Assembly: GCF_020439865.1 (NCBI RefSeq)
Contig: NZ_JAGRPF010000214.1
Span: forward strand, 1 to 64,000
Reading direction: 5' to 3'
DNA length: 64,000 bases
DNA from: Prosthecobacter sp.
GTDB taxonomy: Bacteria; Verrucomicrobiota; Verrucomicrobiia; Verrucomicrobiales; Verrucomicrobiaceae
The notes below the pieces were generated by a model. It searched no databases, was not told where the DNA came from, and worked only from the letters and a program-made list of their open reading frames with translations. Shown here piece after piece: positions 4,872 through 24,000 of this stretch. The position numbers were made by a program, and so were the translations under genes. Each line of letters starts with the position of its first letter. Position 1 is the stretch's first letter.

Positions 4872-4873
4872 CC

Positions 4874-6928: not shown

Positions 6929-6977
6929 GAAAAAGCTGTCATCTTTCCGGACGTGCCGCCGGCGATGATGACAGCTT
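6916..6977. promoter_or_regulatory. three CTGTCATC boxes, candidate response-regulator operator
   Basis: The octamer CTGTCATC occurs at 6916-6923 and again exactly 20 bases later at 6936-6943, and its reverse complement GATGACAG at 6967-6974. The last two extend to an 11-bp perfect inverted repeat (AAGCTGTCATC / GATGACAGCTT). They lie between the LtaS-like gene and the OmpR-type regulator gene. OmpR-family regulators bind direct or inverted repeats with helical spacing, and the E. coli CusR palindrome also has a TGTCAT half-site, so autoregulation is a reasonable inference. The hairpin lacks a U tract, so a terminator is less likely. Confidence 0.45.
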
Positions 6978-7020
6978 CTTCATTCGCCTTCGTTGGAGTC
7001 CGGGTTCAAACAGCGCATTC

Positions 7021-7695
7021 ATGAAAGTTCTGATCGTCGAGGATGACCAAAAGACCGCGGCTCTGCTCACCCATGCGCTATCGCAGGAAGGCTTTGTGGT
7101 GACACATGCCACGGACGGAGAACGGGGCCTGCGCGAGGCGCTCACAGATTCCTACGATGCCATGGTGACCGACATCATGCTTCCGAAACGTGACGGTCTC
7201 AGCCTCGTCGGCGCCATGCGCAAGGAGGGGTGCACGACCCCCGTCATCATGCTCTCCGCCCGCGGGGAGGTGGAGCAGCGTGTGGAAGGCCTGAATGCCG
7301 GAGCCGATGACTACCTCGCAAAACCTTTTGCCATGTCAGAACTGGTGGCTCGGCTGCGCTCCCTGCTGAGGCGGAACGCAGGTCTTCGTCCTGCGGTGCT
7401 GACGCTGAATGACCTCGCCTATGACCTCACCACCCGGGAGACTCGGCGCGGGGGCAAACGCATCGAGCTGTCCTCTCGGGAAAGCCTGCTGCTGGAGTGC
7501 CTGATGCGCGCCGAAGGGCGCGTGGTGAGCCGCCGCGATATCATCGAGGCCGTCTGGGAGTATGACTTTGATCCTGGCTCAAATCTGGTGGACGTCTATG
7601 TCCGGCGTCTGCGGGAAAAGATTGACCGTGGGCATTCCACACCGTTGATCCAGACCGTCCGCGGTCTGGGCTATGCCCTTCGCCTTCAGCCATGA
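7021..7695 (+). CDS. OmpR/PhoB-family response regulator, CusR-like
   Basis: A 224-residue two-domain response regulator. The receiver domain (1-118) has the acidic pair D8-D9, the phosphorylated aspartate D51 in VTDIMLPKRDG, S79 and K101 (LAKPF). The C-terminal winged-helix DNA-binding domain (about 125-222) has the OmpR-type ending YVRRLREKID and TVRGLGYAL. It is the first gene of a string of translationally coupled or closely spaced genes: kinase, TolC-like protein, adaptor and RND pump. That layout is typical of Cus/Cop/Czc metal-responsive systems, so it probably activates this pump when metal is in excess. The inducing metal is not known. Confidence 0.9.
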   Translation: MKVLIVEDDQKTAALLTHALSQEGFVVTHATDGERGLREALTDSYDAMVTDIMLPKRDGLSLVGAMRKEGCTTPVIMLSARGEVEQRVEGLNAGADDYLAKPFAMSELVARLRSLLRRNAGLRPAVLTLNDLAYDLTTRETRRGGKRIELSSRESLLLECLMRAEGRVVSRRDIIEAVWEYDFDPGSNLVDVYVRRLREKIDRGHSTPLIQTVRGLGYALRLQP

Positions 7696-8762
7696 GTCTG
7701 CGCCGCCGCATCATGACCCTCTACATTGTCACGCAGTGCGTGTCCTTGGTCATCGTTGCGTTCTGGAGCTGGTTCGAATTCGAGGAGCAGCGGGAGATCG
7801 TGCGCCAGGGTGGGGTGGCGGCGGTGGAGCGCGAAAGCCCCTTCGTGGAGACTTTGGAGATTGTCACTGCCGGTGGAGTGCCCGCATTGGTGGTGGGCAT
7901 CTTTGTGGGTGGATTGCTCCTTCGTCGTGCCTTGGAACCCATCGGCAGGCTGACCTTGGAACTGGAAAACACGGACATTTCGAATCTCTCGCGTCCAGTG
8001 CCTCGCAGCGGCAGCGGCGATGAAATCGACCGCATGACGATCGTGTTCAACAGCATGAAAGAACGTCTCGGCGCGTCCTTCACCCAGGCACGCGAGTTCA
8101 CGCTGCATGCATCTCATGAGCTGAAGACACCGCTGACGATTCTTCATGGCACCCTCGAGCAGATGCTCGGGGACTCAGCGGTTCCGGAAGCACAAAAGGA
8201 ACGCATCTCTTCGATGCTGGAGGAGGTGCAGCGCCTCGCCGGCATCGTCGGTCAGCTGGCCTTCCTCGCAAAAGCAGACGCCGGACTGCTTTCCTTTTCT
8301 CATGATCGGGTGGCCATGGACGATCTGGTGCGGGACCTGATGGAGGATCTCAACCACCTCTCCGCGCCGAATGAAATCACCGTGACTCTCACGGAGTGCC
8401 AGCCCGCCATCGTTCGCGGCGACCGCATGCGACTCCGACAGCTCCTGCTCAACCTCGCTGACAATGCAGTGAAGTACAATGTGCCACGCGGTACCATCAC
8501 TCTCTCGCTAAAACCCGTGCAAGGGCGGATCTGCCTGGAGATCTGCAACACAGGACCGGTCCTGCCCGAAAACCTGCGTGCCCGTGTTTTCGAGCGCTTC
8601 TTCAGAGGTGATGAAGCCCACGGTGGGGACATCGAAGGCAGCGGCCTTGGCCTCAGTATCGCCCAGACGATCGTTCAGGCTCACCAAGGCCTCATCACGC
8701 TCCAAGTATCGCCTGAAGGTCTAAACTGCGTCACCGTCTGCTTCCCAAAGATTGCCGAATGA
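7692..8762 (+). CDS. sensor histidine kinase, CusS-like, with very short sensor loop
   Basis: A 356-residue membrane kinase. Two membrane helices (about 9-28 and 61-78) flank only some 30 residues outside, then HAMP (79-132), the phospho-acceptor H142 in SHELKTP, the N box LLLNLADNAVKYN, and G boxes ending in GSGLGLSIAQTIVQAHQG. Its ATG overlaps the response-regulator stop (ATGA) and its stop overlaps the TolC-like gene start. CusS-type kinases normally bind metal in a periplasmic domain of well over 100 residues; that domain is missing here, so sensing may use the membrane segment or a partner protein. The pairing with the regulator is firm, the signal is not. Confidence 0.9.
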   Translation: MSLRRRIMTLYIVTQCVSLVIVAFWSWFEFEEQREIVRQGGVAAVERESPFVETLEIVTAGGVPALVVGIFVGGLLLRRALEPIGRLTLELENTDISNLSRPVPRSGSGDEIDRMTIVFNSMKERLGASFTQAREFTLHASHELKTPLTILHGTLEQMLGDSAVPEAQKERISSMLEEVQRLAGIVGQLAFLAKADAGLLSFSHDRVAMDDLVRDLMEDLNHLSAPNEITVTLTECQPAIVRGDRMRLRQLLLNLADNAVKYNVPRGTITLSLKPVQGRICLEICNTGPVLPENLRARVFERFFRGDEAHGGDIEGSGLGLSIAQTIVQAHQGLITLQVSPEGLNCVTVCFPKIAE

Positions 8763-10087
8763 ACCCCTCCTGTGTCATGCCAATGTTGTCCCTCGTGCTG
8801 CTCGCCGCATGCACAGCTTATCGGTCGAAGCCGATTTCACCGGAAGAGTCGGCTGCCGATTTTGCGCAGCGCCGCTTGGATTCCCCCGGTGTGAGGAAGT
8901 TTTTGGAAGAGCAGAAGGCATCCCGTGGCGCATGGAATGTGGACCGTCTTTCTCTCGTAGCAGCCTACTATCATCCGGACGTGGCTCTCGCGCGGGCGGA
9001 GGCGGATGAGATGTCTGCGGCGATCAAAACGGCGGAGATGCGCCCGAATCCGGTGTTCACCTTCGGGCCTCAGTTCGCCGGCAATCGTGTCAGTCCTTAC
9101 ACGCCGTGGTTCATCGCCGGCAATGTCTTCATCCCAATCGAAACCGCAGGCAAACGCAGCAAGCGCACGCAACAGGCCATCGCTGCCGCCGAAGCAGCGC
9201 GCTGGCGCGTTTCTTCACGCGCTTGGGCGGCCCGCTCTCGTGTTCGTGCGGCCATGCTGGAGTTGCATGGCGCGCGTGAGAACATCCGCCTGCTCGAAAC
9301 GGAACAGAAGCTGCACGATGAGGCGATCAAAAAGCTGACCGCGCAGATGGAGGCCGGAGATGTCTCACCGTTCGAACTCACGCAAGCGCGTCTGATGCTC
9401 AATCGTGCCCGCCTGGCATTGCAGGACGCGCAGCGTCTGGCCGCAACGGGTGAGGCAAAGCTGGCGGCAGCGGTGGGTGTGCCGTTGAGCGCGATCCGGT
9501 CGGTGTCGCTCGACTTTTCGTCTTTGCAGCGCCTGCCAGATGTCAGCGAGAGTTCCACCCGTCGTCACGCACTGACCCAGCGTGCGGATCTGCTGTCGCT
9601 GCTGGCAGACTACGCAGCTGCCGAATCGGCCCTGAAACTTGAGATCGCGAAACAGTATCCGGACCTGAGGATTGGTCCTGGGTTCGACTACAATCAGGGG
9701 CAGAACCGTTGGCAACTTGGCGTGAGCCTCGACCTGCCTGTAAATGGCAATCGCGGCCCCATCGCTCAAGCCGAGGCCCGACGTGTGACGGCGGAGAAAC
9801 GTTTCCTCGCGCAGCAAAACACGATTCAGGGCGAGCTCGACATCGCGCTTGCTGCTTATCGAGCATCGAGAGCCAAAGCATCCACTGCCGCACTCCTCGC
9901 GCAGGAGGCCCGGGCTGCGTCAGACACGACAAAACGCATGGTCGACGCTGGGCAGGTCTCCGCTCTAGAACTAACCCGCCGTCAGATCGAGGCCAGTAAC
10001 GCGAACGTGGCGCTCATGGCCGCCAACATCGAAGCCCAAAGTGCTGCCGGCGCCCTCGAAGACGCCATGCAGGCCACGTTGCGATAA
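8759..10087 (+). CDS. TolC/CusC-like outer-membrane efflux lipoprotein (first RND system)
   Basis: A 442-residue outer-membrane factor. The N terminus MNPSCVMPMLSLVLLAAC is a lipoprotein signal with the lipidated cysteine at C18. The rest is the duplicated OEP fold, with long helical stretches of alternating Ala, Gln and Glu that form the periplasmic tunnel, and two short strand segments (FGPQFAGN, GVSLDLPV) for the barrel. It trimerises as the exit duct of the RND pump encoded downstream. The start overlaps the kinase stop by four bases. The best guess for the family is CusC/CzcC of heavy-metal efflux. Confidence 0.85.
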   Translation: MNPSCVMPMLSLVLLAACTAYRSKPISPEESAADFAQRRLDSPGVRKFLEEQKASRGAWNVDRLSLVAAYYHPDVALARAEADEMSAAIKTAEMRPNPVFTFGPQFAGNRVSPYTPWFIAGNVFIPIETAGKRSKRTQQAIAAAEAARWRVSSRAWAARSRVRAAMLELHGARENIRLLETEQKLHDEAIKKLTAQMEAGDVSPFELTQARLMLNRARLALQDAQRLAATGEAKLAAAVGVPLSAIRSVSLDFSSLQRLPDVSESSTRRHALTQRADLLSLLADYAAAESALKLEIAKQYPDLRIGPGFDYNQGQNRWQLGVSLDLPVNGNRGPIAQAEARRVTAEKRFLAQQNTIQGELDIALAAYRASRAKASTAALLAQEARAASDTTKRMVDAGQVSALELTRRQIEASNANVALMAANIEAQSAAGALEDAMQATLR

Positions 10088-10100
10088 CCCGCCACCTTTT

Positions 10101-11072
10101 ATGAAGCATCTCCTCATCCTCGCCCTCGCCGCCATGGCATTGCGCGCCGCCGACTCCGGCGGTTCCGCACCTGCCACAGTCACCAAGGAGGGGGACCTGG
10201 TGGTCTTGACGCTCAAACCAGAGGCCGAACAGAATCTCCGCCTCAAAGTCGTCGCCGTTGAGAGGCGCAGCCTCCCTGAAGTGCGATTGTTTTCTGGGGA
10301 AGTCGTCACGCCACTGGCAGCAGAAGGCAAGCCGGTCGCACCTGTGCTTGGGGGCACCTTGGACGAGGTGCTACGTCTCGCGGATCTTCAAGCCGCCGCC
10401 GACGGACGCATCCTGCAGGCGCAAGTGCAGATCGACGCGGCGAAGATCGCCGTCGACCGCGCTGAAAAGATGCTCAGCGCAGAAGCCGGCAGCGCGCGCT
10501 CGGTTGATGAAGCGAAGACGGCCCTCGCTCTCGCGGAGGCGGCCATGACCACGGCCAAAGCACAGCGTGACCTGCTGGGGGCCGCAGTGGGACAAGGTGG
10601 CGCGAAGCGTGAATGGATCCGTGTGGCGATCTACAGCGGGGAGTCTGCGCTCCTCGACGCCAAATCAGCGGCCGTCGTCAAACCGCTTGGTTCTGCAAAC
10701 GCTGGACAGAGCGCCAAGCCTGTCGCTGGTCCACCGACGGCCAACGCTCTTACCAACACGGTGGACTGGTACTATGCGCTGCCTGCTGAAACCTCGCTTC
10801 GCGCTGGAGAACGCGTGGCCGTCGAGATTCCCACGCTCGAAAACAAGACGGAGTCACTCGTCATTCCGTTCAGCGCGGTTCTCAGTGACATCCATGGCGG
10901 ACAGTGGGTTTATGCGCAGACCGGCGAGCACACCTACACTCGCAAGCGCATCCAGGTCGCGCGCGTCGCTGGTGGCGAGGCCGTTCTTTCCAGTGGGCCG
11001 CCGGTCGGAACCAAGGTGGTCACCGACGGCAGCGCCGAACTGTTCGGCACGGAATTCATGACGGGAAAATAA
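10101..11072 (+). CDS. short periplasmic adaptor of the first RND system
   Basis: A 323-residue secreted membrane-fusion protein (signal [18 protein letters not shown]). An alpha-hairpin rich in Ala, Glu and Lys spans about residues 105-170, followed by beta-barrel and membrane-proximal segments ([42 protein letters not shown]). The lipoyl region that should precede the hairpin is poorly preserved, and the protein is shorter than CusB or CzcB (about 400-520 residues). It links the RND trimer at 11077 to the outer-membrane channel at 8759. The start at 10101 fits the signal peptide; the longer open frame overlaps the TolC-like gene. Confidence 0.75.
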
Positions 11073-11076
11073 CTCC

Positions 11077-14000
11077 ATGCTTCAAGCCATAGTCACCTGG
11101 GCGCTGAACATGCGCGTGCTCGTCGTCGCGGCGGCGTTGGCGTTGCTTTTTGTCGGCGTCAATGCCACGCGCGATGCGCCTCTCGACGTGTTTCCGGAGT
11201 TTGCTCCTCCTCTGGTTGAAGTTCAAACCGAGGCGCCGGGCCTTTCCACCGAAGAAGTGGATTCACTCGTCACCGTCCCGCTTGAGAATTCGCTCAATGG
11301 CCTGCCGTTTCTTAAAACCCTGCGCTCGAAGTCCGTGCTGGGACTGTCGTCCGTGGTGATGATCTTCGATACCGGCACGGACATTCTCAAAGCGCGACAA
11401 CTCGTGCAGGAGAGGCTGAACCTCGCACAGAACCGTTTGCCCTCTGTAGTGAAGCCGCCGGTGCTCATGGCTCCTTATTCTTCTCTAAGCCGTGTTTTGA
11501 AAGTGGGACTGACGTCAGAGACGCTTTCGCAGATGGAGATGAGCGAACTCGCCTTCTGGACGATGCGCCCGCGGCTCATGTCCGTGCCCGGTGTGGCGAA
11601 TGTGGCCATCTGGGGCCAGCGCGACAGGCAGTTTCAGGTGCTCGTCGATCCGCAGCGCCTTCGTGCCGCCGGTACGACGCTTGACGCGATCACGAAGGCC
11701 GCAGGTGATGCCGCAGTGATCAGCGCTGGCGGTTTCATCGACACGCCGAACCAGCGTCTGAGCGTTTCACAGTTGTCGATGATCACCACGCCGGAGGATC
11801 TCGCACGCACGGTGGTCGAATTTCGCAACGGCGCGCCGATTCGTCTGGGCGATGTCGCCGAAGTGAAGATCGGTCATCCGCCGCCGATTGGCGACGCGGT
11901 CATCAACGACGGTGACGGCATTTTGCTCATCGTGGAAAAGCAGCCTTGGGGCAACACGCTCGATGTCACGCTTGGTGTCGAAAAAGTGCTCGAAGAACTG
12001 AAACCCGCGCTGCCCGGCGTGAACGTGGACAGCACCATCTTTCGTCCGGCGACGTTCATCCAGCTTTCCATCGATCATCTCAGCGAGGCGCTGTGGCTCG
12101 GCTGTCTGCTGGTCGTCATCGTGCTCGCGCTGTTCCTCGGCGACTGGCGCACGACGATCATCAGCATCACGGCCATCCCGCTGTCTCTTGCCATTGCGCT
12201 CATCCTGCTGCGCTGGCGTGGCGAAACGATCAACACGATGATCCTTGCCGGACTCATCATCGCGCTCGGGGAAGTCGTGGATGATGCGATCATCGATGTG
12301 GAAAATATCCTGCGTCGTCTGCGCCAGCATCCGGACAAACCGCGGCTCAAGGTCGTGCTCGAAGCCTCGCTGGAGGTGCGCAGCGCGGTCGTCTATGCCA
12401 GCGTCATCATCGTGCTCGTGTTTGTGCCCGTGTTCTTCCTGCCGGGGCTTGCAGGCACGTTCTTCCGCCCGCTCGCGCTGTCTTACATTCTCGCCATTTC
12501 CGCTTCGCTCGCCGTCGCACTCACAGTGACTCCGGCACTGTGCCTGCTGCTGCTCAAACCCAAACAAGGCGCTCATCGCGATGCGTTGGTCTCGCGTGGT
12601 GTGATGGCGGTGTATCGCTCCATCCTTCCGTTGTTCGCACGCAGACCGTGGGCGGCCGTGTTGTTCCTGCTCATCGCCTTTGCGGGCACGGGCTGGGTCT
12701 GGCACACGCAATTGAAGGAAGAGTTTCTTCCCAGCTTCAAGGAGCGTGATTTCCTGATGCACTGGCTCGAAAAGCCGAACACAAGCGTGGAGGCGAGCAA
12801 GCGCATCACGAAAGCGGCGGCGCATGATCTCATGGCCGTGCCCGGCGTGCGCAATCAGGGCTCGCATATCGGCCGCGCGGAGGTCGCGGATGAAGTGGTC
12901 GGTCCCGATTTCACCGAGTTGTGGATCAGCATCGATCCAGACGTGCCTTATGACGAGACGATCAATAAGGTGCAGGCCGTGGTGGACGGTTATCCCGGAC
13001 TTACCCGCGATTTGCTCACCTTTTTGCGTGAGCGCATCAAGGAGGTGCTCACCGGCGCCAGCGCGAGCATCGTGGTGCGCATCTTTGGCCCGGATCTCGA
13101 TGAATTGCGCGACCGTGCCGCTGAAGTCGGTGCCGTGCTCAAGGATGTGCCCGGCGTGAGCGCGTTGAAGGTCGAGTCGATGGTGCTCGTGCCGCAGATC
13201 ACGGTGAAACTGCGTCCCGAATCCGCCGCGCTGCATGGACTCACCGCGGGTCAGGTGCGGCAGGCTGTGACCACGCTGATCAGCGGACGCAAGGTCGGCG
13301 AGGTCTTCCAGGATCAGCGTGTGCACGACGTCACCGTCTGGAGCATTCCCGCCGTGCGTGCGGATTACACAAAACTGCGCGAGCTTCTCATCGAAACACC
13401 TTCCGGTGGTCATGTGCGCCTCGAGGATGTGGCCGATCTCGCCGTCGTGCCGACGCCGAACGCGATTAAACGCGAAGGCGCCTCGCGCCGCATCGACGTG
13501 ACCTGCAACGTATCAGGTCGCACACTGGGAGATGTCGCACGCGACGTCGAAGAACGCATCGCCAAGGTAAAATTCGCGGCAGGCTATCATCCCGAAATCC
13601 TCGGCGAATGGGCCGAGCGTCAGTCGGCGCAGAGTCGGCTCGGCTGGCTGGGGCTCGCGTCGCTCATCGGCATTCTGGCGCTGCTGCTCGCCGATTTCCA
13701 ATCACCCCGTCTCGTCACGCTCATCGCGCTCACGCTGCCCTTCGCGCTCATTGGCGGTGTCATGGCGGCGTGGTTCAGCGGTGGCGTGCTGTCGCTCGGT
13801 TCGCTCGTCGGATTTGTCACCGTGCTCGGCATCGCCGCGCGCAATGGCATTCTGCTCGTCAGTCATTACCGTCATTTGGAAACAGAGGAAGGTCACGCCT
13901 TCGGCCTGCCGCTTGTGCTGCAGGGCAGCGAGGAACGTCTCATTCCGATCCTCATGACCGCCGCCACCGCTGCGCTCGCGCTGCTGCCTCTTGTGCTCAA

Positions 14001-14157
14001 AGGCGACGTCCCAGGCAACGAAATCGAACGCCCGCTCGCTCTCGTCATCCTCGGCGGCCTCGTGACCAGCACCGCGTTGAATTTGTTCCTGCTGCCGGCG
14101 TTGTATGCGCGGTTTGGGCGTCAGAACATCGGTCCAAACAAAGGAGGGCTAGGGTGA
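11077..14157 (+). CDS. RND efflux transporter, heavy-metal (HME/CzcA) type
   Basis: A 1026-residue, 12-TM proton-antiporting pump. The N terminus ([27 protein letters not shown]) and helix 4 motif ([16 protein letters not shown], with the proton-relay acidic residues) mark the heavy-metal-efflux branch of RND proteins rather than drug pumps. Two large periplasmic loops lie after TM1 and TM7. The length equals that of CzcA and CusA. It begins four bases after the adaptor gene and completes the tripartite pump. The triad of methionines that carries Cu(I) in CusA is not clearly recognisable, so I do not name the metal; Zn, Co, Cd, Cu or Ag remain possible. Confidence 0.85.
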
Positions 14158-14203: not shown

Positions 14204-14527
14204 TTAGTGTTGTGTGCAATGGTGCAAAGCGCCGCCGCAGGAGGAGCAGGTATGGTGGGTGATGTTGCCGCCCTTGAGCATTTCGACCACTTTGTTTTTG
14301 CAGTCAGGGCAGCTCATGGTGCTGGCGGAGCGCAGGGCGACAATGCCGCCCTTTTCGCCGGCCGCTCCGACTCCCCCCGTGACGGGAGCCTTGAACCAGA
14401 TGGTATGGCATTTGCTGCAGGTTGCGGCGCTTGTGGGGACGGAAGCCGGCCCCTGGCAGGAGACGAGAGCGAGAGCGCCGATGGCGAGGAATCTCGCCGT
14501 GATCGTTTTGAGGATGGATGTTTTCAT
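14204..14527 (-). CDS. small Cys-rich metal-binding lipoprotein, unknown function
   Basis: A 107-residue lipoprotein. The signal ends in the lipobox ALVSC (C24). The mature part contains three CxxC pairs (CSKCH near residue 37, CPDC near 72, CSSC near 93) and ends His/Cys-rich (HHTCSSCGGALHHCTQH). That pattern would suit binding of Cu(I), Zn or Hg as a periplasmic sponge or chaperone. I do not recognise a named family. It lies downstream of the ECF sigma gene on the same strand, after 113 bases, and next to the metal pumps. The start at 14527 opens the signal peptide; a longer frame upstream has no export signal. Confidence 0.7.
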   Translation of the reverse strand: MKTSILKTITARFLAIGALALVSCQGPASVPTSAATCSKCHTIWFKAPVTGGVGAAGEKGGIVALRSASTMSCPDCKNKVVEMLKGGNITHHTCSSCGGALHHCTQH

Positions 14528-14640
14528 GATGATGGTTGTGTTTGTTTTTGGATGGAGCGGTGGCTCCACAGCGATCAACACCACCTCCTCATCAAACCCC
14601 TGGGGAGAACAATCCGTGCCCTGCGGATCGCAATGGACGC

Positions 14641-15213
14641 TTACTCTGCCTGCGAACTGTCGAGCGATGCACGCAAGAGCTGGCGGGCGCGATAGATGCG
14701 CGTCTCGACCGCTTTCGAGGTGCAGCCCACTGCAGCGGCGATTTCGGCATAGCTCATGTCCTCATAGGTGAAGAGCAGCATGGCCTCGCGCAGATCTGCG
14801 GGGAGTGCTGCGAGCGCCTTTTCGACGCGCTGCATTTGTTCGTGCTGCTCGAGCAGTTGGTCGGGTCCGGGGTGGGACTCCACGGCCTCAGGCACATGAC
14901 CTTCCTCATCATCCATGGAGACGGTGGGATGGCGCAGCCTCCAGCGGGCGTGGTTGCGTGCGAGATTGGAGGCAATGCTGAAGAGATAGCTCGGAAACGC
15001 GGCGGTTGGGCGATAACGGGCGCGGCTTTGATACAGCTTCACAAAGGTTTCCTGCGCGAGGTCAAGGGCGGTGGCAGAGTTGCCGGTCATGCGCAGGAGA
15101 AATGCGGCGACCTTGTCCTTCCAGCGCTGCATTAGATCGTTCAGTGCCAGATCATCACCCGCGGCGAGACGCTGCATGGCGGCGATGTCGGCATTGGACG
15201 ACGAGTCAGGCAT
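14641..15213 (-). CDS. ECF RNA polymerase sigma factor (CnrH-like position)
   Basis: A 190-residue group 4 sigma-70 factor. Region 2 (about 20-90) includes DLAQETFVKLYQSRARYRP, which recognises the -10 element and melts DNA; region 4 (about 125-180) includes LPADLREAMLLFTYEDMSYAEIAAAVGC, the helix-turn-helix for the -35 element. Regions 1.1 and 3 are absent, as usual for ECF factors. It is the third gene of a cassette: membrane anti-sigma at 15715, periplasmic sensor at 15224, sigma here, the same order and sizes as cnrY-cnrX-cnrH of Cupriavidus metallidurans. It probably drives its own operon and the divergent efflux genes. Confidence 0.88.
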   Translation of the reverse strand: MPDSSSNADIAAMQRLAAGDDLALNDLMQRWKDKVAAFLLRMTGNSATALDLAQETFVKLYQSRARYRPTAAFPSYLFSIASNLARNHARWRLRHPTVSMDDEEGHVPEAVESHPGPDQLLEQHEQMQRVEKALAALPADLREAMLLFTYEDMSYAEIAAAVGCTSKAVETRIYRARQLLRASLDSSQAE

Positions 15214-15223
15214 GGAAGTCGGG

Positions 15224-15718
15224 TCAGTTGTGGGAATGAACACCGTCTGCCCGCGAAGGGTCGAGACCGAAGGCATTGGGCAGCACGAGCTTCAGATATT
15301 TGGCTGCCTGTTTCTCGTCCATGCAGGCCGCAGTTTCATAAACATGCTTCAGCATCGCCTGCTGGCATTCCATGGTGAGATCCGCCCGTTCACGCAGGTG
15401 TTTCTGCACATCGCCCTCCACTTTGCGGCTGTCTGACGAGGATTTCAGCAGGGCCTGGTTGGACCGATGCACGCGCGCGCACAGCTCCTCGCATCTGGGC
15501 TGATAAGCCAAGTGCAGGGCCTTCACTTTCTCAAACTGGGCGTCGGTGAGCGCGAGTGAATGCCTCAGCCATTCGAGTTCGGGCAGCAGGCTGCCGTTTT
15601 CCGTCGGAACATTGGATGTGTCTTCGCAGCCGCAGGATGGCAGCATGGTCCGCGATCCGTAAAACATGCCGATTCCCAGTAGGATGGCGGCGATGAGGAT
15701 CAGCAGGCCACGTTTCAT
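15224..15718 (-). CDS. membrane-anchored periplasmic metal sensor, CnrX/ZraP-like
   Basis: A 164-residue protein: N-terminal membrane anchor (about 4-20) and a periplasmic, mostly helical domain with the pattern of the metal-resistance/CpxP fold (LRHSLALTDAQFEKVKALHL, then EKQAAKYLKLVLP near the end). Candidate ligands are C29, C31, C76 and C80 (C-x3-C), M116, C118, M122, H125 and C132. In CnrX the Ni/Co site is built mostly of His plus one Glu and Met, so the many thiols here point to a softer metal such as Cu(I), Ag(I) or Hg(II). It overlaps the upstream anti-sigma gene by four bases, which implies coupled synthesis and complex formation. Confidence 0.75.
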   Translation of the reverse strand: MKRGLLILIAAILLGIGMFYGSRTMLPSCGCEDTSNVPTENGSLLPELEWLRHSLALTDAQFEKVKALHLAYQPRCEELCARVHRSNQALLKSSSDSRKVEGDVQKHLRERADLTMECQQAMLKHVYETAACMDEKQAAKYLKLVLPNAFGLDPSRADGVHSHN

Positions 15719-16038
15719 CGCGACACCTCCCGACCCGTGCGCAGGAGCGGATTGATCGACTCGGCATAGGCCAGTTCACCCCGGGCATCAGGAGAACCCT
15801 GATGTGTCATCCATCCAAATCCGCCACCCAAGAGCATGCAAACGGCGATGGTGGCGAAGGCCGGCGCGGGTCGTGACAGCGCCCCAAGCAAGGCGGTCCA
15901 CGCCTGCGAGAGAGCCGCGAGAACCGATGGGTTCTCTTCGGCCTCAATGCGTGCCCAGACTTCGCGTGTGAAGGAGCCGGGCAGAGTGATTCGGGCGGGT
16001 GAGTCGCGCAGGAGGCGGTGCAGTTGATCGTCGTTCAT
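15715..16038 (-). CDS. single-pass anti-sigma factor, CnrY-like
   Basis: A 107-residue protein with a short cytoplasmic N-terminal part (about 1-57) carrying a predicted amphipathic helix (SFTREVWARIEAEE), one membrane helix (about 59-77) and a short periplasmic tail. There is no zinc-binding ZAS motif. Size and topology match CnrY, which holds the sigma factor at the membrane through a short helical segment. I start at 16038 (MNDDQLHRLL); the longer open frame upstream is not supported. First gene of the cassette; the start is 37 bases after a candidate sigma-dependent promoter element. The identification rests on gene order and topology more than on sequence similarity. Confidence 0.65.
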   Translation of the reverse strand: MNDDQLHRLLRDSPARITLPGSFTREVWARIEAEENPSVLAALSQAWTALLGALSRPAPAFATIAVCMLLGGGFGWMTHQGSPDARGELAYAESINPLLRTGREVSR

Positions 16039-16075: not shown

Positions 16076-16100
16076 CATGGGTCCACCAATGAGAACACCG
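16076..16100 (-). promoter_or_regulatory. candidate ECF sigma promoter for the anti-sigma/sensor/sigma operon
   Basis: Read on the minus strand, CGGTGTT (16100-16094) is followed after exactly 14 bases by CATG (16079-16076), 37 bases before the anti-sigma ATG. The identical arrangement is found on the plus strand upstream of the efflux operon. Spacing resembles ECF -35/-10 promoters. A sigma-70-like alternative (TTGGTG, 17-base spacer, TATGCT at 16066-16061) overlaps it and might give basal expression. Confidence 0.45.
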
Positions 16101-16185
16101 GCCTGCGTCGAAACCCTTGCAAAATAAGTGCACATCCTGCTGTCGATTGTTCATCGGCGGTTTTTTTGAGGGTTTGGAGTGACGG

Positions 16186-16210
16186 CGGTGTTTGACACAT
16201 TGACTGCATG
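16186..16210 (+). promoter_or_regulatory. candidate ECF sigma promoter for the YHS-TolC-CusB-CusA operon
   Basis: CGGTGTT at 16186-16192 is followed after exactly 14 bases by CATG at 16207-16210, 56 bases before the ATG at 16267. The same element with the same spacing, on the other strand, precedes the sigma-factor operon 100 bases away, which is the pattern expected if one ECF factor controls both. Confidence 0.45.
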
Positions 16211-16266: not shown

Positions 16267-16545
16267 ATGAAACGCATCCAGTTTATCGTCCTCTTCGCGG
16301 TTGCCGCCATCGGCACCAGTTTCATCCATGCCGCCGACGAAAAAGCTCCTGAAGGTGTGCCTGCCACCTATCCGCTCCAGAAGTGTGTGATCTCAGGCGA
16401 GTCGCTCGGCGAGATGGGCAAGCCCGTCAAAGTCACTCACGAAGGCACGGACGTGTATCTTTGCTGCAAGTCCTGCCTCAAGGACTTCAACAAAGAGCCC
16501 GCCAAGTATGTGAAGATGGTGAAAGACGCCGTTGCGAAGAAGTAG
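16267..16545 (+). CDS. secreted YHS/TRASH-like metal-binding protein
   Basis: A 92-residue protein with a cleavable signal peptide (MKRIQFIVLFAVAAIGTSFIHAAD) and a small domain with a first cysteine in QKCVISGESLG and a CCKSC cluster in DVYLCCKSCLKDFNKEPAKYV. This arrangement (C, then a CC-x-x-C after two strands, then FxxxPxxY) belongs to the YHS/TRASH type of copper- or heavy-metal-binding domains. It is the first gene of the second efflux operon, 64 bases before the TolC-like gene, and may deliver or buffer metal in the periplasm. Confidence 0.75.
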   Translation: MKRIQFIVLFAVAAIGTSFIHAADEKAPEGVPATYPLQKCVISGESLGEMGKPVKVTHEGTDVYLCCKSCLKDFNKEPAKYVKMVKDAVAKK

Positions 16546-16609
16546 CCTGAGGCATCTGGCAGGATGTAGCCTGCCGCGTTTCTTCCACCAATCTCACGCC
16601 TTCCTGATC

Positions 16610-17944
16610 ATGATCCGGTTCCTCATTCCTGCGGTCTCGTCCTTCGCGTTTCTCTTGGGGGCGGTGAGCTGTGTCTCCAGCAAAACATCAACATCAACAT
16701 CAGTCTCAAGGAGAGAGGATCGTTTGACAGTTTCCTCGAGAGGCGCCCCGCGCAATCTGGCTTCTGGAGCGGGATTGGAGGAGTTCGTGAGTGTGGCACT
16801 TGCCAACAATCCGGAAATGGCCGCCGCCGAGGCGCGTGTGGCGAGGATGGAGGCCAAGGTGCCTCAGGCGAAGGCGCTTCCCGATCCCATGGCGATGGTC
16901 TCGCTGGGCAACATGGCGCAGACGGCGGCAGGACGTGTGACGGCCATGAGCGGTCTTCAGCAGAAGCTGCCGCTGCCGGGCAAACTGGGGGCGAAAGCAC
17001 GCATGGCGGAGGAGGAAGTGACGGCTGCGCGCGCCATGCGTGATGCCAAGGCGTTGGGCATCGCCTCCATGGTGCGCAGCACGTATTGGGACCTATATCT
17101 CGCAGAGCAAACCGCACGCGTGCTGACCTCCAGCCGCAATCTGATCGGATCCGTGCAGACGGCCGTGGAAGCACGGTTGATCACGAACCAGGCCAATCAG
17201 GCCGATCTGCTGCAGGTCACCACGGAGGCCGCGAAGCTCGATGAGCAGATCATCCTCGCCAAGCGGGATGCGACCGTGGCGAAAGCGCGTTTGAACACGT
17301 TGATGCATCGTCCTCAGACCGCGGCGCTTCCGGCAGCGCGCTGGCAGTCAAGCATCGGACGGCTGCCTGCCGAGCCGCCGCTGGACGATCATCCTGCCAT
17401 GGCGCAGGCCGCGGCGAAATTGCGGCAGTTTAACGCGCAACTGAAGCTCGCCCGTCTCGAACGTTTTCCCGATCTCACCGTGGGACTGCAGCATGGTGCC
17501 GTTTCGAATTCCGGCCTGTCGCCTGTGCACAATGGACAGGACCAGCTCTACGCCACGCTGGGCGTGAACATTCCTCTGTGGCAGGCGCCGCGGAAAGCCG
17601 CTGAGGAAGAAGCCCGCGCTGGCCAGCGCGAGAGCGAGGCTGGAATCTCCGCCACACGCGATGAGCTCTCCTATCAGTTGTCCGAAACGCGCACGCGTGT
17701 GGAGACGCAGAAACGGCTGATCGAACTGTTTGATGATCGCATCCTGGCTGATGCGAAGCAGGCCTTTGAAGTCAGTCTGGCCGGTTACTCCTCCGGCAAG
17801 CTTCCCTTTGTCGATCTCATCGAGCGCTGGCGGCGCTGGTTGGGATACGAGGTTCAGCAGTCGATGAATCAGGCGATGCTCGGCAAGGCCGTCGCCGCCT
17901 GGTGGCAGGCCGCGGGCATCCCTGTCACGTCGAACGCGAATTGA
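16610..17944 (+). CDS. TolC/CusC-like outer-membrane efflux lipoprotein (second RND system)
   Basis: A 444-residue outer-membrane channel of the OEP family. The signal MIRFLIPAVSSFAFLLGAVSC has a lipobox with lipidated C21. The mature protein has the duplicated helical pattern of TolC, with barrel-type segments near MVSLGNMAQTAAG and TVGLQHGAVSN and the conserved proline-bearing ALPDPMA and LERFPDLTVG. It is the exit duct for the CusA-like pump at 20203. I start at 16610, the ATG that opens the signal peptide; an earlier start at 16532 would overlap the preceding gene and weaken the signal. Confidence 0.85.
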   Translation: MIRFLIPAVSSFAFLLGAVSCVSSKTSTSTSVSRREDRLTVSSRGAPRNLASGAGLEEFVSVALANNPEMAAAEARVARMEAKVPQAKALPDPMAMVSLGNMAQTAAGRVTAMSGLQQKLPLPGKLGAKARMAEEEVTAARAMRDAKALGIASMVRSTYWDLYLAEQTARVLTSSRNLIGSVQTAVEARLITNQANQADLLQVTTEAAKLDEQIILAKRDATVAKARLNTLMHRPQTAALPAARWQSSIGRLPAEPPLDDHPAMAQAAAKLRQFNAQLKLARLERFPDLTVGLQHGAVSNSGLSPVHNGQDQLYATLGVNIPLWQAPRKAAEEEARAGQRESEAGISATRDELSYQLSETRTRVETQKRLIELFDDRILADAKQAFEVSLAGYSSGKLPFVDLIERWRRWLGYEVQQSMNQAMLGKAVAAWWQAAGIPVTSNAN

Positions 17945-17965: not shown

Positions 17966-20173
17966 ATGAACAAGCTCGCTCAAGTCTTACTTCGCCCGGG
18001 ATTCGTCCTCATGCTGATCGTGGGTGTCCTGATGTTTCTCATCGGCTGGCGCATCGCCAAAGGACCTGCGGAGACGCATGATCATCAAAAGATGGAAGCT
18101 GCGGCCAGCACTGTGTGGACCTGCGCGATGCATCCGCAAATTCGGCAGCCGGGTCCGGGGAAATGCCCGATCTGCAAGATGAACCTGATTCCCGCCTCGA
18201 CGAAGACGGCAGGAGGCCTACGTGAGATCAGCGTGATGCCCGAAACTGCGGCGATGCTCGATTTCCGTGTCACTCCGGTGATTCGTGCGGCGGCCGTGCG
18301 CGAACTGCGGCTGTTTGGCACCGTGTCGTATGATGAGAGGCGCGTGCAAAGCATCACGGCATGGGTGGGCGGGCGTCTGGATCGCATGTTTGTCGATTTT
18401 ACCGGCACGCGCGTGCGCAAAGGAAATCACCTCGCGGAAATCTACAGTCCCGACCTGTTCGTGGCGCAGCAGGATCTCATCCAGGCGCGTCGCCAGCTCG
18501 GTTCGACAAATGGTGGCACGCAGCGTCTGCTCTATGACGCGGTGCGCGAGAAGCTGCGCCTGCTCGGCATTCCAGCGGAACGCATCGATGCCATGGCAGC
18601 GGCCGAGGCGCCGTCCGATCATGTGGTGCTGTCTGCCCCGCAAGACGGAATCGTGGTCGAGAAAATCGCCCGCGAAGGCGATTACGTCACCGTGGGCCAG
18701 AAGCTCTACACCATCGCCGATCTCGACATGGTTTGGGTGAATCTTGAGGCCTATGAGAGTGATCTGCCCTGGCTGCGTTTTGCCCAGGAGGCCACGTTCA
18801 CCAGCGAAGCCATTCCCGGACGCGAATTTCACGGACGCGTGGCCTTCATTGATCCTGTGCTTGATCGCAAACGGCGCGTGGTGAGCGTGCGTGTGAATGT
18901 GAAGAACGAGGAGGGGCTGTTGAAGCCCGGCATGTTCGTATCCGGCCTCATTCATTCCGAGATCGATGCCAGCGGTCGCGCGGTCACCAATGATCTGCAG
19001 GGGAAATGGGTCAGTCCCATGCATCCGGAGATCATCAAAGACGGGCCGGGCGTGTGCGACATCTGCGGCATGAAGCTCGAGCGTGCCGAGGATCTGGGTT
19101 TCATCAGCCCCGGCAAGGCGGGCAAACTTCCGCTGCTGGTGCCGGCGTCCGCCGTGCTGCGCACGGGGGAACGCGCCATTGTTTACGTGAAGCTTCCCAA
19201 GGAGGACATCCTCAGCTTTGAAGGACGTGAAGTTCTTCTCGGCGCACGGGCCGGCGATCAATACGTCGTCGAATCCGGTTTGGCACAGGGGGATGTGGTG
19301 CTCTCGCGCGGCGCATTCAAGCTCGACAGCGAACTGCAGCTCCAGGCGCGTCCCAGCATGATGAATCCCGATGGCCTGCCTCAGATGTCGGCGGTGAAGC
19401 CGGACACCGTCTTGGCCGCGCAATGGCCTCCGGTGCTGCGCGCGATTCAGCGCCTCCGAAATGAAAGCGACCCCGAAGCCGGACCCATCGTGCAGCAGAT
19501 CGAGGCGTTCGATCTTTCGGTCGTCGATCTGGATGTGGGAGCGGTGTGGAAGGAGCTCAGCCGCAGTCTGATCAACGATCTTCAGCAGCTTGCCAAGGCC
19601 GACACGAAGAAGGAGCAGCAGCGTGCCTGGAACGTGATCGACGGGCGGTTGGAACAACTCCATCGCCATCTGGGCCTCGGGGTGGAAATGCGCACCGAAA
19701 ACACCCAGCCTGCCGACCCGCAGCGCATTGCGATGCTGCGCCGCCTGCTGGAGGCGTACTTTCCGCTGCAAATTGCGCTCGCTCATGACGATGGCGCCGG
19801 CGCGAAACAGGCCGCTGCGGAGATCGAAAAGGCTGCGGAGGCCATGCCGCCGTATGCAAAGTTCAAGCCTCTCGCGAATGCGGTGATCAAGGCGGCGGAC
19901 ATCAAGGCACGTCGTGCAACCTTTGAGCCGTTGTCCGCAGCCATCAGCGATGCAGTCCGCCAGGATGGGCATGACCTGGTCGGTGGCGTGTTTGTGATGC
20001 ACTGTCCCATGGGGCTTGGGCGCGGCGCCGACTGGGCGCAGGGAACGCGTGACATCGTCAATCCCTACATGGGCAAGGTGATGATCACGTGCGGCGAACT
20101 CCGCCAAACACTCTCACCACCTGATACCGCTCCGGCAACGACACCGACAGAGCATGTTCATCCCAAACCCTGA
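17966..20173 (+). CDS. CusB-like RND adaptor with two heavy-metal-binding modules and DUF3347 domain
   Basis: A 735-residue membrane-fusion protein. Domains in order: membrane anchor (12-28); first heavy-metal-binding module (51-77: C53, M55, H56, C67, C70, M72); lipoyl, barrel and helical hairpin parts of a CusB adaptor (about 85-345); a second such module (about 348-376, MHPEI...VCDICGMKLE, with only one Cys pair); membrane-proximal beta domain (to about 480); and a C-terminal DUF3347 domain (about 590-720) with HCPM and ITCGE. CusB is about 400 residues, so this is a fusion of adaptor and metal chaperone modules. It works between CusA-like 20203 and the TolC-like 16610. The modules fit Cu(I)/Ag(I). 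Confidence 0.9.
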   Translation: MNKLAQVLLRPGFVLMLIVGVLMFLIGWRIAKGPAETHDHQKMEAAASTVWTCAMHPQIRQPGPGKCPICKMNLIPASTKTAGGLREISVMPETAAMLDFRVTPVIRAAAVRELRLFGTVSYDERRVQSITAWVGGRLDRMFVDFTGTRVRKGNHLAEIYSPDLFVAQQDLIQARRQLGSTNGGTQRLLYDAVREKLRLLGIPAERIDAMAAAEAPSDHVVLSAPQDGIVVEKIAREGDYVTVGQKLYTIADLDMVWVNLEAYESDLPWLRFAQEATFTSEAIPGREFHGRVAFIDPVLDRKRRVVSVRVNVKNEEGLLKPGMFVSGLIHSEIDASGRAVTNDLQGKWVSPMHPEIIKDGPGVCDICGMKLERAEDLGFISPGKAGKLPLLVPASAVLRTGERAIVYVKLPKEDILSFEGREVLLGARAGDQYVVESGLAQGDVVLSRGAFKLDSELQLQARPSMMNPDGLPQMSAVKPDTVLAAQWPPVLRAIQRLRNESDPEAGPIVQQIEAFDLSVVDLDVGAVWKELSRSLINDLQQLAKADTKKEQQRAWNVIDGRLEQLHRHLGLGVEMRTENTQPADPQRIAMLRRLLEAYFPLQIALAHDDGAGAKQAAAEIEKAAEAMPPYAKFKPLANAVIKAADIKARRATFEPLSAAISDAVRQDGHDLVGGVFVMHCPMGLGRGADWAQGTRDIVNPYMGKVMITCGELRQTLSPPDTAPATTPTEHVHPKP

Positions 20174-20202: not shown

Positions 20203-23200
20203 ATGTCCCGTCTCATCCGCTTCTGTCTTGAGCAAAAGCTCGTCGTCTTCCTGCTGCTGGCCTTCTTCATCGGCTGGGGCGTGCGTGTGGCACCGTTCGA
20301 CTGGAAGCTGGGGAATTTCCCGCGTGATCCCGTACCGGTCGACGCCATTCCGGATCTGGGCGACAATCAACAGATCGTGTTCACCGACTGGATGGGCCGT
20401 TCGCCGCAGGACGTGGACGATCAGGTGACCTATCCGCTCACCGTCGCGCTGCTCGGCGTGCCGCAGGTGCGGGAGGTGCGCAGCTATTCGTACTTCGGCT
20501 TCTCCAGCATCTACCTCATCTTCAAGGAGGGCACCGATTTCTACTGGGCGCGCAGCCGCATCCTTGAAAAACTCGGCAGCCTTCCTCCCGGAACATTGCC
20601 GGAAGGAACGAGGCCGGCGCTCGGTCCGGATGCCACCGGACTTGGTCAGGTATTTTGGTACACCTTGGAAGGCCGCGATCCCAAAGGCCAGCCCGCGGGC
20701 GGCTGGGACCTCGATGAACTGCGAGCCATCCAGGACTGGCAGGTGCGTTATGCGCTGCTGGCCGGAGGCGCGGTGGCTGAGGTGTCATCCATCGGCGGAT
20801 TTGTGCGCGAATATCAGATCGACGTGAATCCAAACGCTCTGCGCGCGAACAACGTCATGCTCATGGATGTGGCGGAGGCGGTGCGAAGGGCGAACACGGA
20901 GTCCGGCGCGCGCAACATGGCGATCAACGGCGTCGAATACATCATTCGCGCCACAGGTTATGTGCGTTCGCTTGAAGACCTGCGCAGTGCCGTGGTGACC
21001 GTGCGCGACAACACGCCGGTGACTGTTGGTGACCTTGCGACGGTGCAGCTCGGCCCCGCCATGCGACGCGGCGCGCTCGACAAAAACGGTGCGGAGGCTG
21101 TGGGTGGCGTGGTGGTCGCACGCTATGGCGAAAATCCACTCGTCGCGATCCAGCAGACGAAGGAAAAGATCAAAGAGCTTTCCACAGGTCTTCCTCAGCG
21201 TGCCGTGGTGCGCTGGGAGATGACGGATGTGGAGGCCGTGCGGGCTTTTGCGGCGAAAAACCATCTGCCACTGCCCGCCAGCGGAGCGCACGATAGTGTT
21301 CTGGGTGACGAATGGCAGAAGTGGCTCGCGGCAACCGACATGGCGCAGTGGCCGGAGTGGCTGACCTTGTCCAAGGTGACCGTGGTGCCGTTCTATGACC
21401 GCAGCGGTCTGATTCGCGAAACATTGGGGACACTGGAAGACGCGCTGCGGCAGGAGGTGTTGATCACCATCATCGTCGTGATGGTAATGGTGCTGCATTT
21501 GCGCGGCAGCCTGTTCATCAGCTGCATGCTGCCGCTTGCCGTGCTGATCGCATTCGTGGCAATGAAGCTTTTCGGCGTGGATGCGAACGTGGTGGCGCTT
21601 GGAGGGATTGCCATCGCCATCGGGACTGTCGTGGATGTGGGAATCGTGCTGACCGAAAACATTCTCAAGCACATGCATGACGCGCCACCGGACGAACCGG
21701 TGCTCGAAACGATTCATCGTGCCACCACCGAGGTGGCGAGCGCGGTGATCACCTCGGTATCGACCACCGTGGTCAGTTTCCTGCCTGTGTTCACGCTCAC
21801 GGGCGAAGCCGGGCGTCTTTACGGGCCACTTGCCTACACGAAGTCGTTCGCGCTCATCGCATCCGTCGTTACCGCCGTCATCCTCATCCCGCCGATCGCC
21901 CATCTGCTCATGCGGCGACGCGTCGATCGGACGGCCGCAGTCCTCATGGCCAAGGTCAAAGCACCGCCCATGCTAACCCAGCGCGCTTTCAGCCTGATCA
22001 TCGCGGCGCTGACCGGCTGTGTGCTTGCTTCAGACTGGATGCCTCTGGGTCTCGACTACAGCACATGGCGCAATGTGATTTTCACGATCGCCATCATCGG
22101 AGGGCTGTTGCTGTTTTACCGGTTGGTCGAACATTTTTATCCCGCCATTCTCGGCTGGTGCCTGCGACGCAAGACGGCGTTCCTTCTCATCCCGGCTGGC
22201 ATCATCGTGATGGGGCTTCTGAGCTGGCTCGGCTGGGAGAAAACTTTCGGCTGGACCGGTGCTCGCGTGCCGTCACTGGCGCAAACCCGCTTGTGGAAAG
22301 ATTTGCAGAAAACCTTCCCCGGGCTCGGTGGTGAGTTCCGACCGGCGCTCGATGAAGGTTCGTTTCTCGTCATGCCGACGATCAATCCGCATGCATCCAT
22401 GGAGGAGGCGCTCGACTACCTCAAAAAGCTCGATGCGGCCGTGGCGGAGGTGCCGGAAGTGTACATGGTCGTTGGCAAGCTTGGCCGCACCGACTCCGCG
22501 CTCGATCCCGCACCGGTGTCGATGTACGAAAACATCGTGAACTACAAAAGCGAGTTCATCACCGACGCCAATGGCAGACCCCTGCGCTATCGCTACGACT
22601 CGGACGGCGAGCGTTTCATCTTCGACGAATTCGGCGATCTCATTCCCGACAGCGGCGGTCGTCCCTTTCGTCAATGGCGCGATCACATCCGGTCGCCGTC
22701 CGACATCTGGCAGGAAATCGAGAAACGAATCTCCATCACCGGCATGACCGGTGCGCCGCAGTTGCAGCCCATCGAAACGCGGCTCGTGATGCTGCAGACC
22801 GGCATGCGTGCGCCCATGGGCATCAAGGTGCGCGGTCCATCGCTGCAGGCCGTTGAGTCCTTCGGAATTCGCATTGAACAGCTGCTCAAAACCGGCGGTG
22901 TTCCGGGGCTTTCCGCAGGCTCGGTGAGCGCCGAACGCATCGTTGGGAAACCCTATCTCGAAGTCGTTCCCGACCGGGATGCGATTCAACGCTACGGATT
23001 GAACATCGCCGACGTGCATCAAATGCTCGAACTCGCCGTTGGCGGCAAAACGGTCACCACCACGGTCGAAGGACGCGAACGATTTGCCGTACGTGTGCGC
23101 TATATGCGCGAGGAGCGTGACAGCATCGAGGCGCTTGAACGTGTGCTCATCACTTCGAAAGAGGGGGTCGCGATCCCGCTCGCGGAAATCGCCGAGATCC

Positions 23201-24000
23201 GCTTCACGCGCGGGCCGCAGATGATCAAAAGCGAGGACACCTTTCTCACCGGATTCATCACTTTCGGCAATGAGCCCGGATCAGCTCCCATGGACGTCGT
23301 TCTCGCCGCTCAGAAATTTTTGCGTGAGGCGGAAACGCGGGGCGATCTCGTGAGGCCACAGGGCGTCACCTATCGCTTTGCTGGCGACTACGAGAACCAG
23401 CTCGAATTTGACCGCAATTTCGCGGTCGTGCTGCCGCTCACGCTGGGTGCGATTTTCATGCTGCTTTACCTGCAGTTCCGTTCCAGCCTCATCGCACTTC
23501 TCGTCTTCACCGGCGTCGCGATCGCCTGGGCGGGCGGTTTCTGCCTGCTGTGGGCCTACGGGCAGGCGGACTTTCTCAACTTCTCCGTGTTCGGCCAGAA
23601 CCTGCGCGAGCTCTTCCATGTCTTTCCGATCAATCTCTCGACTGCCGTCTGGGTGGGCTTCCTCGCGTTGTTCGGCATTGCCACGGATGACGGTGTCGTG
23701 ATCGCCACCTATCTCAAGCAGCGCTTTGCCAAAGACAATCCGCGAACCGTCGCCGAAATCCGGGCCAGTGTGGTTACGGCCGGCACACGACGTGTGCGCC
23801 CGTGCCTGATGACCACCGCCACCACGGTGATCGCATTGCTGCCGGTGCTAACCAGCACCGGTCGCGGCAGTGATCTCATGATCGCCATGGCCGTGCCGAT
23901 TTTCGGCGGCATGACCATCGAGATCATCACCATGTTTGTCGTCCCGGTGCTATTCAGCGCCTGGAAGGAGCGCGGGGCCGTGCGTTCGCCTGCAAGCTGA
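20203..24000 (+). CDS. CusA-like heavy-metal RND efflux pump, enlarged
   Basis: A 1265-residue inner-membrane RND protein. The HME signature is clear: PVDAIPDLGDNQQIVFTDW after TM1 and GGIAIAIGTVVDVGIVLTEN in TM4, with FYDRSGLI as in CusA. LVMPTINPHASM matches the CusA segment with the first copper-binding methionine, and LVMLQTGMRAPMGIKVRG matches the following metal cleft. It is about 220 residues longer than CusA; visible insertions lie near residues 345-390, 585-650 and 785-825. It would expel Cu(I) or Ag(I) from periplasm or cytoplasm using protons. It abuts the convergent GT9 gene with only six bases between. Confidence 0.9.
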   Translation: MSRLIRFCLEQKLVVFLLLAFFIGWGVRVAPFDWKLGNFPRDPVPVDAIPDLGDNQQIVFTDWMGRSPQDVDDQVTYPLTVALLGVPQVREVRSYSYFGFSSIYLIFKEGTDFYWARSRILEKLGSLPPGTLPEGTRPALGPDATGLGQVFWYTLEGRDPKGQPAGGWDLDELRAIQDWQVRYALLAGGAVAEVSSIGGFVREYQIDVNPNALRANNVMLMDVAEAVRRANTESGARNMAINGVEYIIRATGYVRSLEDLRSAVVTVRDNTPVTVGDLATVQLGPAMRRGALDKNGAEAVGGVVVARYGENPLVAIQQTKEKIKELSTGLPQRAVVRWEMTDVEAVRAFAAKNHLPLPASGAHDSVLGDEWQKWLAATDMAQWPEWLTLSKVTVVPFYDRSGLIRETLGTLEDALRQEVLITIIVVMVMVLHLRGSLFISCMLPLAVLIAFVAMKLFGVDANVVALGGIAIAIGTVVDVGIVLTENILKHMHDAPPDEPVLETIHRATTEVASAVITSVSTTVVSFLPVFTLTGEAGRLYGPLAYTKSFALIASVVTAVILIPPIAHLLMRRRVDRTAAVLMAKVKAPPMLTQRAFSLIIAALTGCVLASDWMPLGLDYSTWRNVIFTIAIIGGLLLFYRLVEHFYPAILGWCLRRKTAFLLIPAGIIVMGLLSWLGWEKTFGWTGARVPSLAQTRLWKDLQKTFPGLGGEFRPALDEGSFLVMPTINPHASMEEALDYLKKLDAAVAEVPEVYMVVGKLGRTDSALDPAPVSMYENIVNYKSEFITDANGRPLRYRYDSDGERFIFDEFGDLIPDSGGRPFRQWRDHIRSPSDIWQEIEKRISITGMTGAPQLQPIETRLVMLQTGMRAPMGIKVRGPSLQAVESFGIRIEQLLKTGGVPGLSAGSVSAERIVGKPYLEVVPDRDAIQRYGLNIADVHQMLELAVGGKTVTTTVEGRERFAVRVRYMREERDSIEALERVLITSKEGVAIPLAEIAEIRFTRGPQMIKSEDTFLTGFITFGNEPGSAPMDVVLAAQKFLREAETRGDLVRPQGVTYRFAGDYENQLEFDRNFAVVLPLTLGAIFMLLYLQFRSSLIALLVFTGVAIAWAGGFCLLWAYGQADFLNFSVFGQNLRELFHVFPINLSTAVWVGFLALFGIATDDGVVIATYLKQRFAKDNPRTVAEIRASVVTAGTRRVRPCLMTTATTVIALLPVLTSTGRGSDLMIAMAVPIFGGMTIEIITMFVVPVLFSAWKERGAVRSPAS

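Follow-up and report, generated by a model that had tools for sequence, protein, structure and literature searches.

The three adjoining genes Y, X, and S in the 64,000-nucleotide stretch of Prosthecobacter DNA analyzed here (the window) probably encode a trans-envelope sigma switch that responds to Cu(I)/Ag(I) and activates its own expression, similar in its working to CnrYXH of Cupriavidus metallidurans but representing a distinct, Cys-type variant. This reading, in which we infer the metal, the complexes formed, and the use of the promoter, draws on gene order and its conservation, the fold of X, the kinship of S with CnrH, an exchange of metal ligands, the methionine triad of the adjoining pump, and a promoter-like site with its positions. 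CnrYXH is usually regarded as a nickel/cobalt specialty of metal-resistant proteobacteria.

Y, X, and S form a conserved cassette in Verrucomicrobiota

The start of X overlaps the end of Y by 4 bases (ATGA), and the ATG of S lies 10 bases past the stop codon of X. An earlier note, made from the sequence of the window alone, had described three minus-strand genes with these sizes, topologies, overlap, and order, and the open reading frames and models agreed with it on every point (Table 1). When 68 genomes of the same family were searched, X relatives were found in 45, and the order Y-X-S was complete in 37 loci (the window and 36 others), in keeping with the CnrYXH-type architecture that the note had proposed. 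The Y-X overlap was exactly 4 bases in 35 of the 38 family loci that have both Y and X, the window included. Since both the overlap and the gene order are kept to this extent, Y-X-S is a real unit and not a chance arrangement.

Table 1. Positions of the cassette, neighboring genes, and promoter-like sites in the window
Feature	Position	Strand	Basis or remark
Predicted Cys-rich (CxxC) lipoprotein; in many relatives it is linked to the cassette	14204..14527	-	
Promoter-like site GGGTTT-N11-GGTGTT between S and the Cys-rich lipoprotein gene	14577..14599	-	Exact copy
S, 190-aa ECF sigma factor, same clade as CnrH	14641..15213	-	Pfam domains and tree
X, 164-aa membrane-anchored periplasmic sensor, predicted CnrX fold	15224..15718	-	Profile and AlphaFold2 model
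Y, 107-aa single-pass putative anti-sigma protein	15715..16038	-	Intact ORF, predicted topology
Promoter-like site GGGTTT-N11-GGTGTT upstream of Y-X-S	16094..16116	-	Exact copy
Promoter-like site GGGTTT-N11-GGTGTT facing the divergent YHS-OEP2-CusB-CusA genes	16170..16192	+	Exact copy
Small exported protein, YHS/TRASH-like, with CCKxC; its gene opens the divergent operon	16267..16545	+	YHS E value of 9e-5, below cutoff
Outer membrane efflux protein (CusC-like; OEP2)	16607..17944	+	
CusB-like adaptor with two heavy-metal-binding domains	17966..20173	+	
CusA-like RND pump, CusA methionines 573, 623, and 672 all conserved	20203..24000	+	Alignment

The note had also suggested looking for the cassette in other Verrucomicrobiota. 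In a phylum-wide sample, the X sensor was present in 68 of 388 genomes, and the order Y-X-S was kept in most of the loci read, including those of several other families of the class; relatives that carry the cassette include, by their contig titles, Prosthecobacter, Verrucomicrobiaceae, and Akkermansiaceae. The module does lie outside Proteobacteria, as the note had stressed, but it is widespread in Verrucomicrobiota and not a local peculiarity of this genome. Four distant Verrucomicrobiota loci (L144, L146, L154, and L155) have the order S-Y-X instead, and at one locus (L047, positions 9497 to 12783) two cassettes, one from each of two groups, stand in tandem, and the upstream sites of the two differ in kind accordingly. 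Plasmids searched with X yielded no close match.

S is related to CnrH

S contains both Sigma70_r2 (2e-15) and Sigma70_r4_2 (4e-16) domains. In a tree of 62 rows with a midpoint root and few outside sequences, a single clade (98/92) united CnrH and the sigma factors of sphingomonad cassettes with those encoded at Y-X-S and S-Y-X loci, and the other ECF sigma factors sampled from this genome fell outside it. Within this clade, CnrH grouped with the sphingomonad proteins and next with some of the sigma factors of cassettes whose sensors carry CnrX-type ligands, whereas the S protein of the window fell into another clade made of Cys-type cassettes. The tree thus supports a relationship between S and CnrH, and sensor type and sigma phylogeny broadly agree.

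A second Y-X-S cassette in the same genome (L070, positions 6771 to 10277; G000:C82) belongs to the former type. Its X protein carries CnrX-type ligands (H, H, E, H, and M), its sigma factor is nearer to CnrH than S is, and its neighbor, encoded on the same strand, is a TonB-dependent receptor.

Y resembles a class II anti-sigma factor in its predicted plan

Because Y matched no family in Pfam or NCBIfam and no PDB sequence, its putative role as the anti-sigma protein is drawn from its position, topology, and predicted helices. The AlphaFold2 model of Y, which is weak (pTM of 0.25), places two helices, predicted to be cytoplasmic, at residues 3 to 12 and 21 to 34, a membrane helix at about residues 57 to 79, and a short periplasmic tail after it. 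The conserved residues form two clusters, one in this tail and one in the second helix (F23, R25, W28, and I31), where W28 is invariant; the earlier note had expected the anti-sigma helix near residues 20 to 35, which is where it is now predicted. The tail carries the motif AYxxSIxPL, of which Y91 and P97 are invariant.

CnrY is the type of the class II anti-sigma factors, with its first helix on sigma-4 and its second on sigma-2 (PMC7406223), and the predicted two-helix plan of Y fits this arrangement. Signs of class I (ASDI, zinc-type) were looked for in Y, and neither an Hx3Cx2C zinc motif nor a Pfam anti-sigma match was found. The similarity between Y and CnrY in hhalign was weak (82% in local mode and 65% in global mode), which lends weak support to direct homology. 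A Pro-Phe/Leu stretch also occurs in the tails of CnrY and the sphingomonad Y proteins; we regard it as a lead only.

X has a predicted CnrX fold with a different set of candidate ligands

X matched PF13801 (Metal_resist) weakly (E value of 8e-4; 20.1 bits, below the cutoff of 29.2) and PF07813 (LTXXQ; CpxP/Spy/ZraP chaperones) at 14.2 bits, below the cutoff of 24.3. When a profile of 33 X proteins was used, the best solved structures were NccX (1.6e-5) and then CnrX (3e-4). The AlphaFold2 model of X (mean pLDDT of 86.9) has a single hydrophobic helix at residues 2 to 25, and the top 15 Foldseek matches to it were all CnrX/NccX, with a probability of 1.00 and a TM score of up to 0.79 on the target. 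CnrX also headed the VIA-align list with a Z score of 10.1. Scores below about 13 may often be seen among helical bundles, and we therefore give the sequence profile and the context of the operon as much weight as the fold. CpxP/Spy/ZraP-type folds were among the structure matches, ranked below CnrX, and CpxP itself was absent from the VIA-align list shown, an absence that does not speak for a different fold. X is, on the basis of these models, CnrX-like; the earlier note had declared beforehand that a predicted structure matching neither CnrX nor ZraP would count against it, and the model, Foldseek, and VIA-align all led back to CnrX.

In the profile alignment, H42, H46, E63, H119, and M123 of CnrX correspond to L48, R52, H69, H125, and T129 of X, such that four of the five ligands are replaced and only H119 is kept (as H125). 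In their place, the X alignment shows H69, C76, C80, C118, and H125, which vary little or not at all. H69 and C76 are 7 residues apart, as are C118 and H125, and C76 and C80 are 4 apart, on two neighboring helices; C76 and C118 should be level with each other, two turns from H69 and H125. Other Verrucomicrobial X proteins have the full CnrX ligand set or all but one of its residues. Because the window X keeps a single residue of that set, we do not file the cassette as a member of CnrYXH; it is a Cys-type variant within the broader class of such cassettes, most likely one that responds to Cu(I)/Ag(I).

Three conserved cysteines in an oxidizing periplasm could also mean that X is a thiol redox sensor, with a disulfide among C76, C80, and C118, or a sensor of envelope stress that detects misfolding as CpxP or Spy does, with metal genes as only part of its regulon. 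The single LTxxQ stretch in X (residues 57 to 61) and the subthreshold PF07813 match point in the same direction. We nevertheless consider a sensor of either kind improbable: X is closer in fold to CnrX and NccX than to CpxP or Spy, conservation extends beyond the cysteines to H69 and H125, and the genes behind the promoter-like site encode metal-handling or Cys-rich exported proteins.

The adjoining pump points to copper or silver

As the earlier note had reported, the cassette lies divergently beside CusCBA-like genes, here a YHS-OEP2-CusB-CusA series. The pump behind the site at 16170 matched CusA with an E value of 3e-171, and the triad M573/M623/M672 was found in all eight full-length cassette-linked CusA-like pumps aligned in the family (the window and seven others). 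Methionine-triad pumps adjoin cassettes in other families as well, and they also occur beside cassettes with CnrX-type ligands; at many cassette loci, there was no RND pump within the stretch fetched.

A simple code in which Cys ligands stand for copper and CnrX-type ligands for other metals failed, since both types adjoin methionine-triad pumps. The Cys residues therefore cannot be credited with choosing copper, and Cu/Ag is indicated by the targets of the cassette and not by its cysteines alone. The earlier note had inferred the same circuit as in CnrYXH; the layout bears this out, whereas the likely metal does not, because Cys/His residues replace CnrX ligands and the pump carries the Cu/Ag triad.

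On the other side of the cassette, window positions 7021 to 14157 hold genes for a response regulator (7021 to 7695), a histidine kinase, an outer membrane protein, an adaptor, and a second pump of the CzcA/CusA family. This second RND pump has HFE at the triad positions, and its presence, together with the CnrX fold of X and the capacity that H69 and H125 could have to bind divalent metals, is what speaks for a cassette that senses nickel, cobalt, or zinc like CnrYXH and adjoins the CusA-like pump incidentally. We judge this unlikely. M123 of CnrX, which is needed for signaling and has been called conserved among CnrX homologs (PMC7689651), is T129 in X, and H42, H46, and E63 are likewise exchanged. 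Moreover, the promoter-like site faces the CusA-like operon, whereas neither an exact nor a one-mismatch copy of GGGTTT-N11-GGTGTT was found before the operon of the two-component system and second RND pump, and in several families the cassette again has a methionine-triad pump as its neighbor.

A promoter-like site tracks the cassette

The sequence GGGTTT-N11-GGTGTT occurs upstream of Y in many relatives. In the 6.17-Mb genome, there are three exact copies in the window and one elsewhere, compared with none of the reversed pattern used as a control. The fourth copy (L222, about positions 4656 to 5445; G000:C219:13655) precedes genes for two small Cys-rich exported proteins, one of which is metallothionein-like and neither of which has a Pfam match. 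Across the 68 genomes, 32 of 113 exact copies fell within 2 kb of an X gene, where 0.09 would be expected, and the site is also found in two other families. Its wider consensus is aAGGGTTTg-N10-GGTGTTtgtC. Since the 11 bases between the two halves are shorter than the usual -35/-10 spacer, the exact -10 element is not fixed; its core may lie within the last part of the site, in the following TTTGTC. At the locus itself, a search for sigma-70 promoters gave no match.

The letters of the site vary with the group of cassettes. In a sister group of cassettes and sigma factors, GGGTTT-N11-GGTGTT is absent, and all of the 12 loci carry the variant GGGGTT-N11-GGAGTT instead, placed ahead of the Cys-rich ORF that comes first. 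That S may be the protein that reads the site is best supported by this covariation with the cassette subgroup, and the copy before Y-X-S suggests autoregulation, as would befit a self-activating switch. In the sister group loci (L046 to L052 and L055 to L059), this ORF, which is small and encodes an exported protein, stands first in the operon, and Y is immediately preceded by a hairpin of terminator-like form (CCCGCCAGG...CCTGGCGGG), perhaps an attenuator.

That the bipartite site is instead the operator of another regulator, such as the response regulator at 7021 to 7695, is slightly less probable even than the readings of X dismissed above: its 6-N11-6 layout looks like that of a direct repeat and would be compact for a sigma promoter, and a CusRS-like two-component pair is nearby, but no exact or one-mismatch copy precedes the operon of that pair, and the site tracks Y-X-S loci across genomes and changes its letters with the cassette subgroup in agreement with the sigma tree.

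Proposed mechanism and significance

In the Cu(I)/Ag(I) switch that we favor, the two N-terminal helices of Y would hold S at the inner membrane at rest, and X would bind the periplasmic tail of Y with its own periplasmic domain. A rise in periplasmic copper(I) or silver(I) would lead X to bind the metal through its Cys/His site, upon which Y would let go of S. The freed S would direct RNA polymerase to GGGTTT-N11-GGTGTT promoters, namely, those of Y-X-S itself, the divergent YHS-CusC-CusB-CusA genes, the Cys-rich lipoprotein gene, and the unlinked pair of genes for Cys-rich exported proteins.

More broadly, the cassettes could constitute a phylum-wide class of Cu/Ag ECF switches in Verrucomicrobiota, with a CnrX-fold sensor whose octahedral Ni/Co site has been exchanged for Cys/His residues, a dedicated promoter that varies with the sigma subgroup, and a role in place of CusRS for the CusCBA pump; the case for and against this generalization seems to us evenly balanced. 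If the proposal is true, the CnrYXH layout would be a general way of signaling metal stress across the envelope, used Verrucomicrobiota-wide for Cu/Ag export, where the shared fold carries another metal site. The cassettes would provide naturally occurring variants with which to study the metal choice of CnrX and the release of Y, and the promoter site, which predicts a regulon, provides a direct and inexpensive test. We found no description of such a Verrucomicrobiota cassette or copper sigma circuit in the literature searched, a search to which most subscription journals and the large ECF reclassification papers were external.

Comparison with known systems

The closest parallel is CnrYXH of C. 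metallidurans (pMOL28), in which Y, X, and H follow in the same order with overlaps and encode proteins of comparable size (95, 148, and 191 residues). The two systems share the CnrX fold, an ECF sigma factor of one clade, and adjoining RND efflux genes, and the two-helix anti-sigma plan of CnrY is predicted for Y as well. They differ in that the window X lacks equivalents of H42, H46, E63, and M123 and has C76, C80, C118, and H69, in that its pump is a Cu/Ag-type CusA rather than CnrCBA and is encoded divergently, and in that Y and CnrY are only weakly similar.

Sphingomonad plasmids carry Y-X-S cassettes (L161, L162, and L224 to L228) beside copA/B or copC/D, with annotations that go no further than hypothetical protein, periplasmic heavy metal sensor, and sigma factor. 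These cassettes share the gene order, mostly overlapping genes, and a copper context with the window, but their X proteins keep H46, E63, H119, and M123, and their targets are copA/B rather than Cus genes.

CorE senses copper through a C-terminal extension of its own and is not known to depend on a Y-X pair. This sigma factor of Myxococcus xanthus is a copper-dependent ECF sigma factor (PMC3107203), and the likeness to S is that of a copper-linked ECF sigma factor. The target pump, finally, recalls CusRS-CusCFBA of Escherichia coli, with which it shares a CusA that has the methionine triad and a CusB-type adaptor. Whereas a histidine kinase pair senses periplasmic Cu/Ag in E. coli, an ECF sigma cassette appears to be wired to the pump here.
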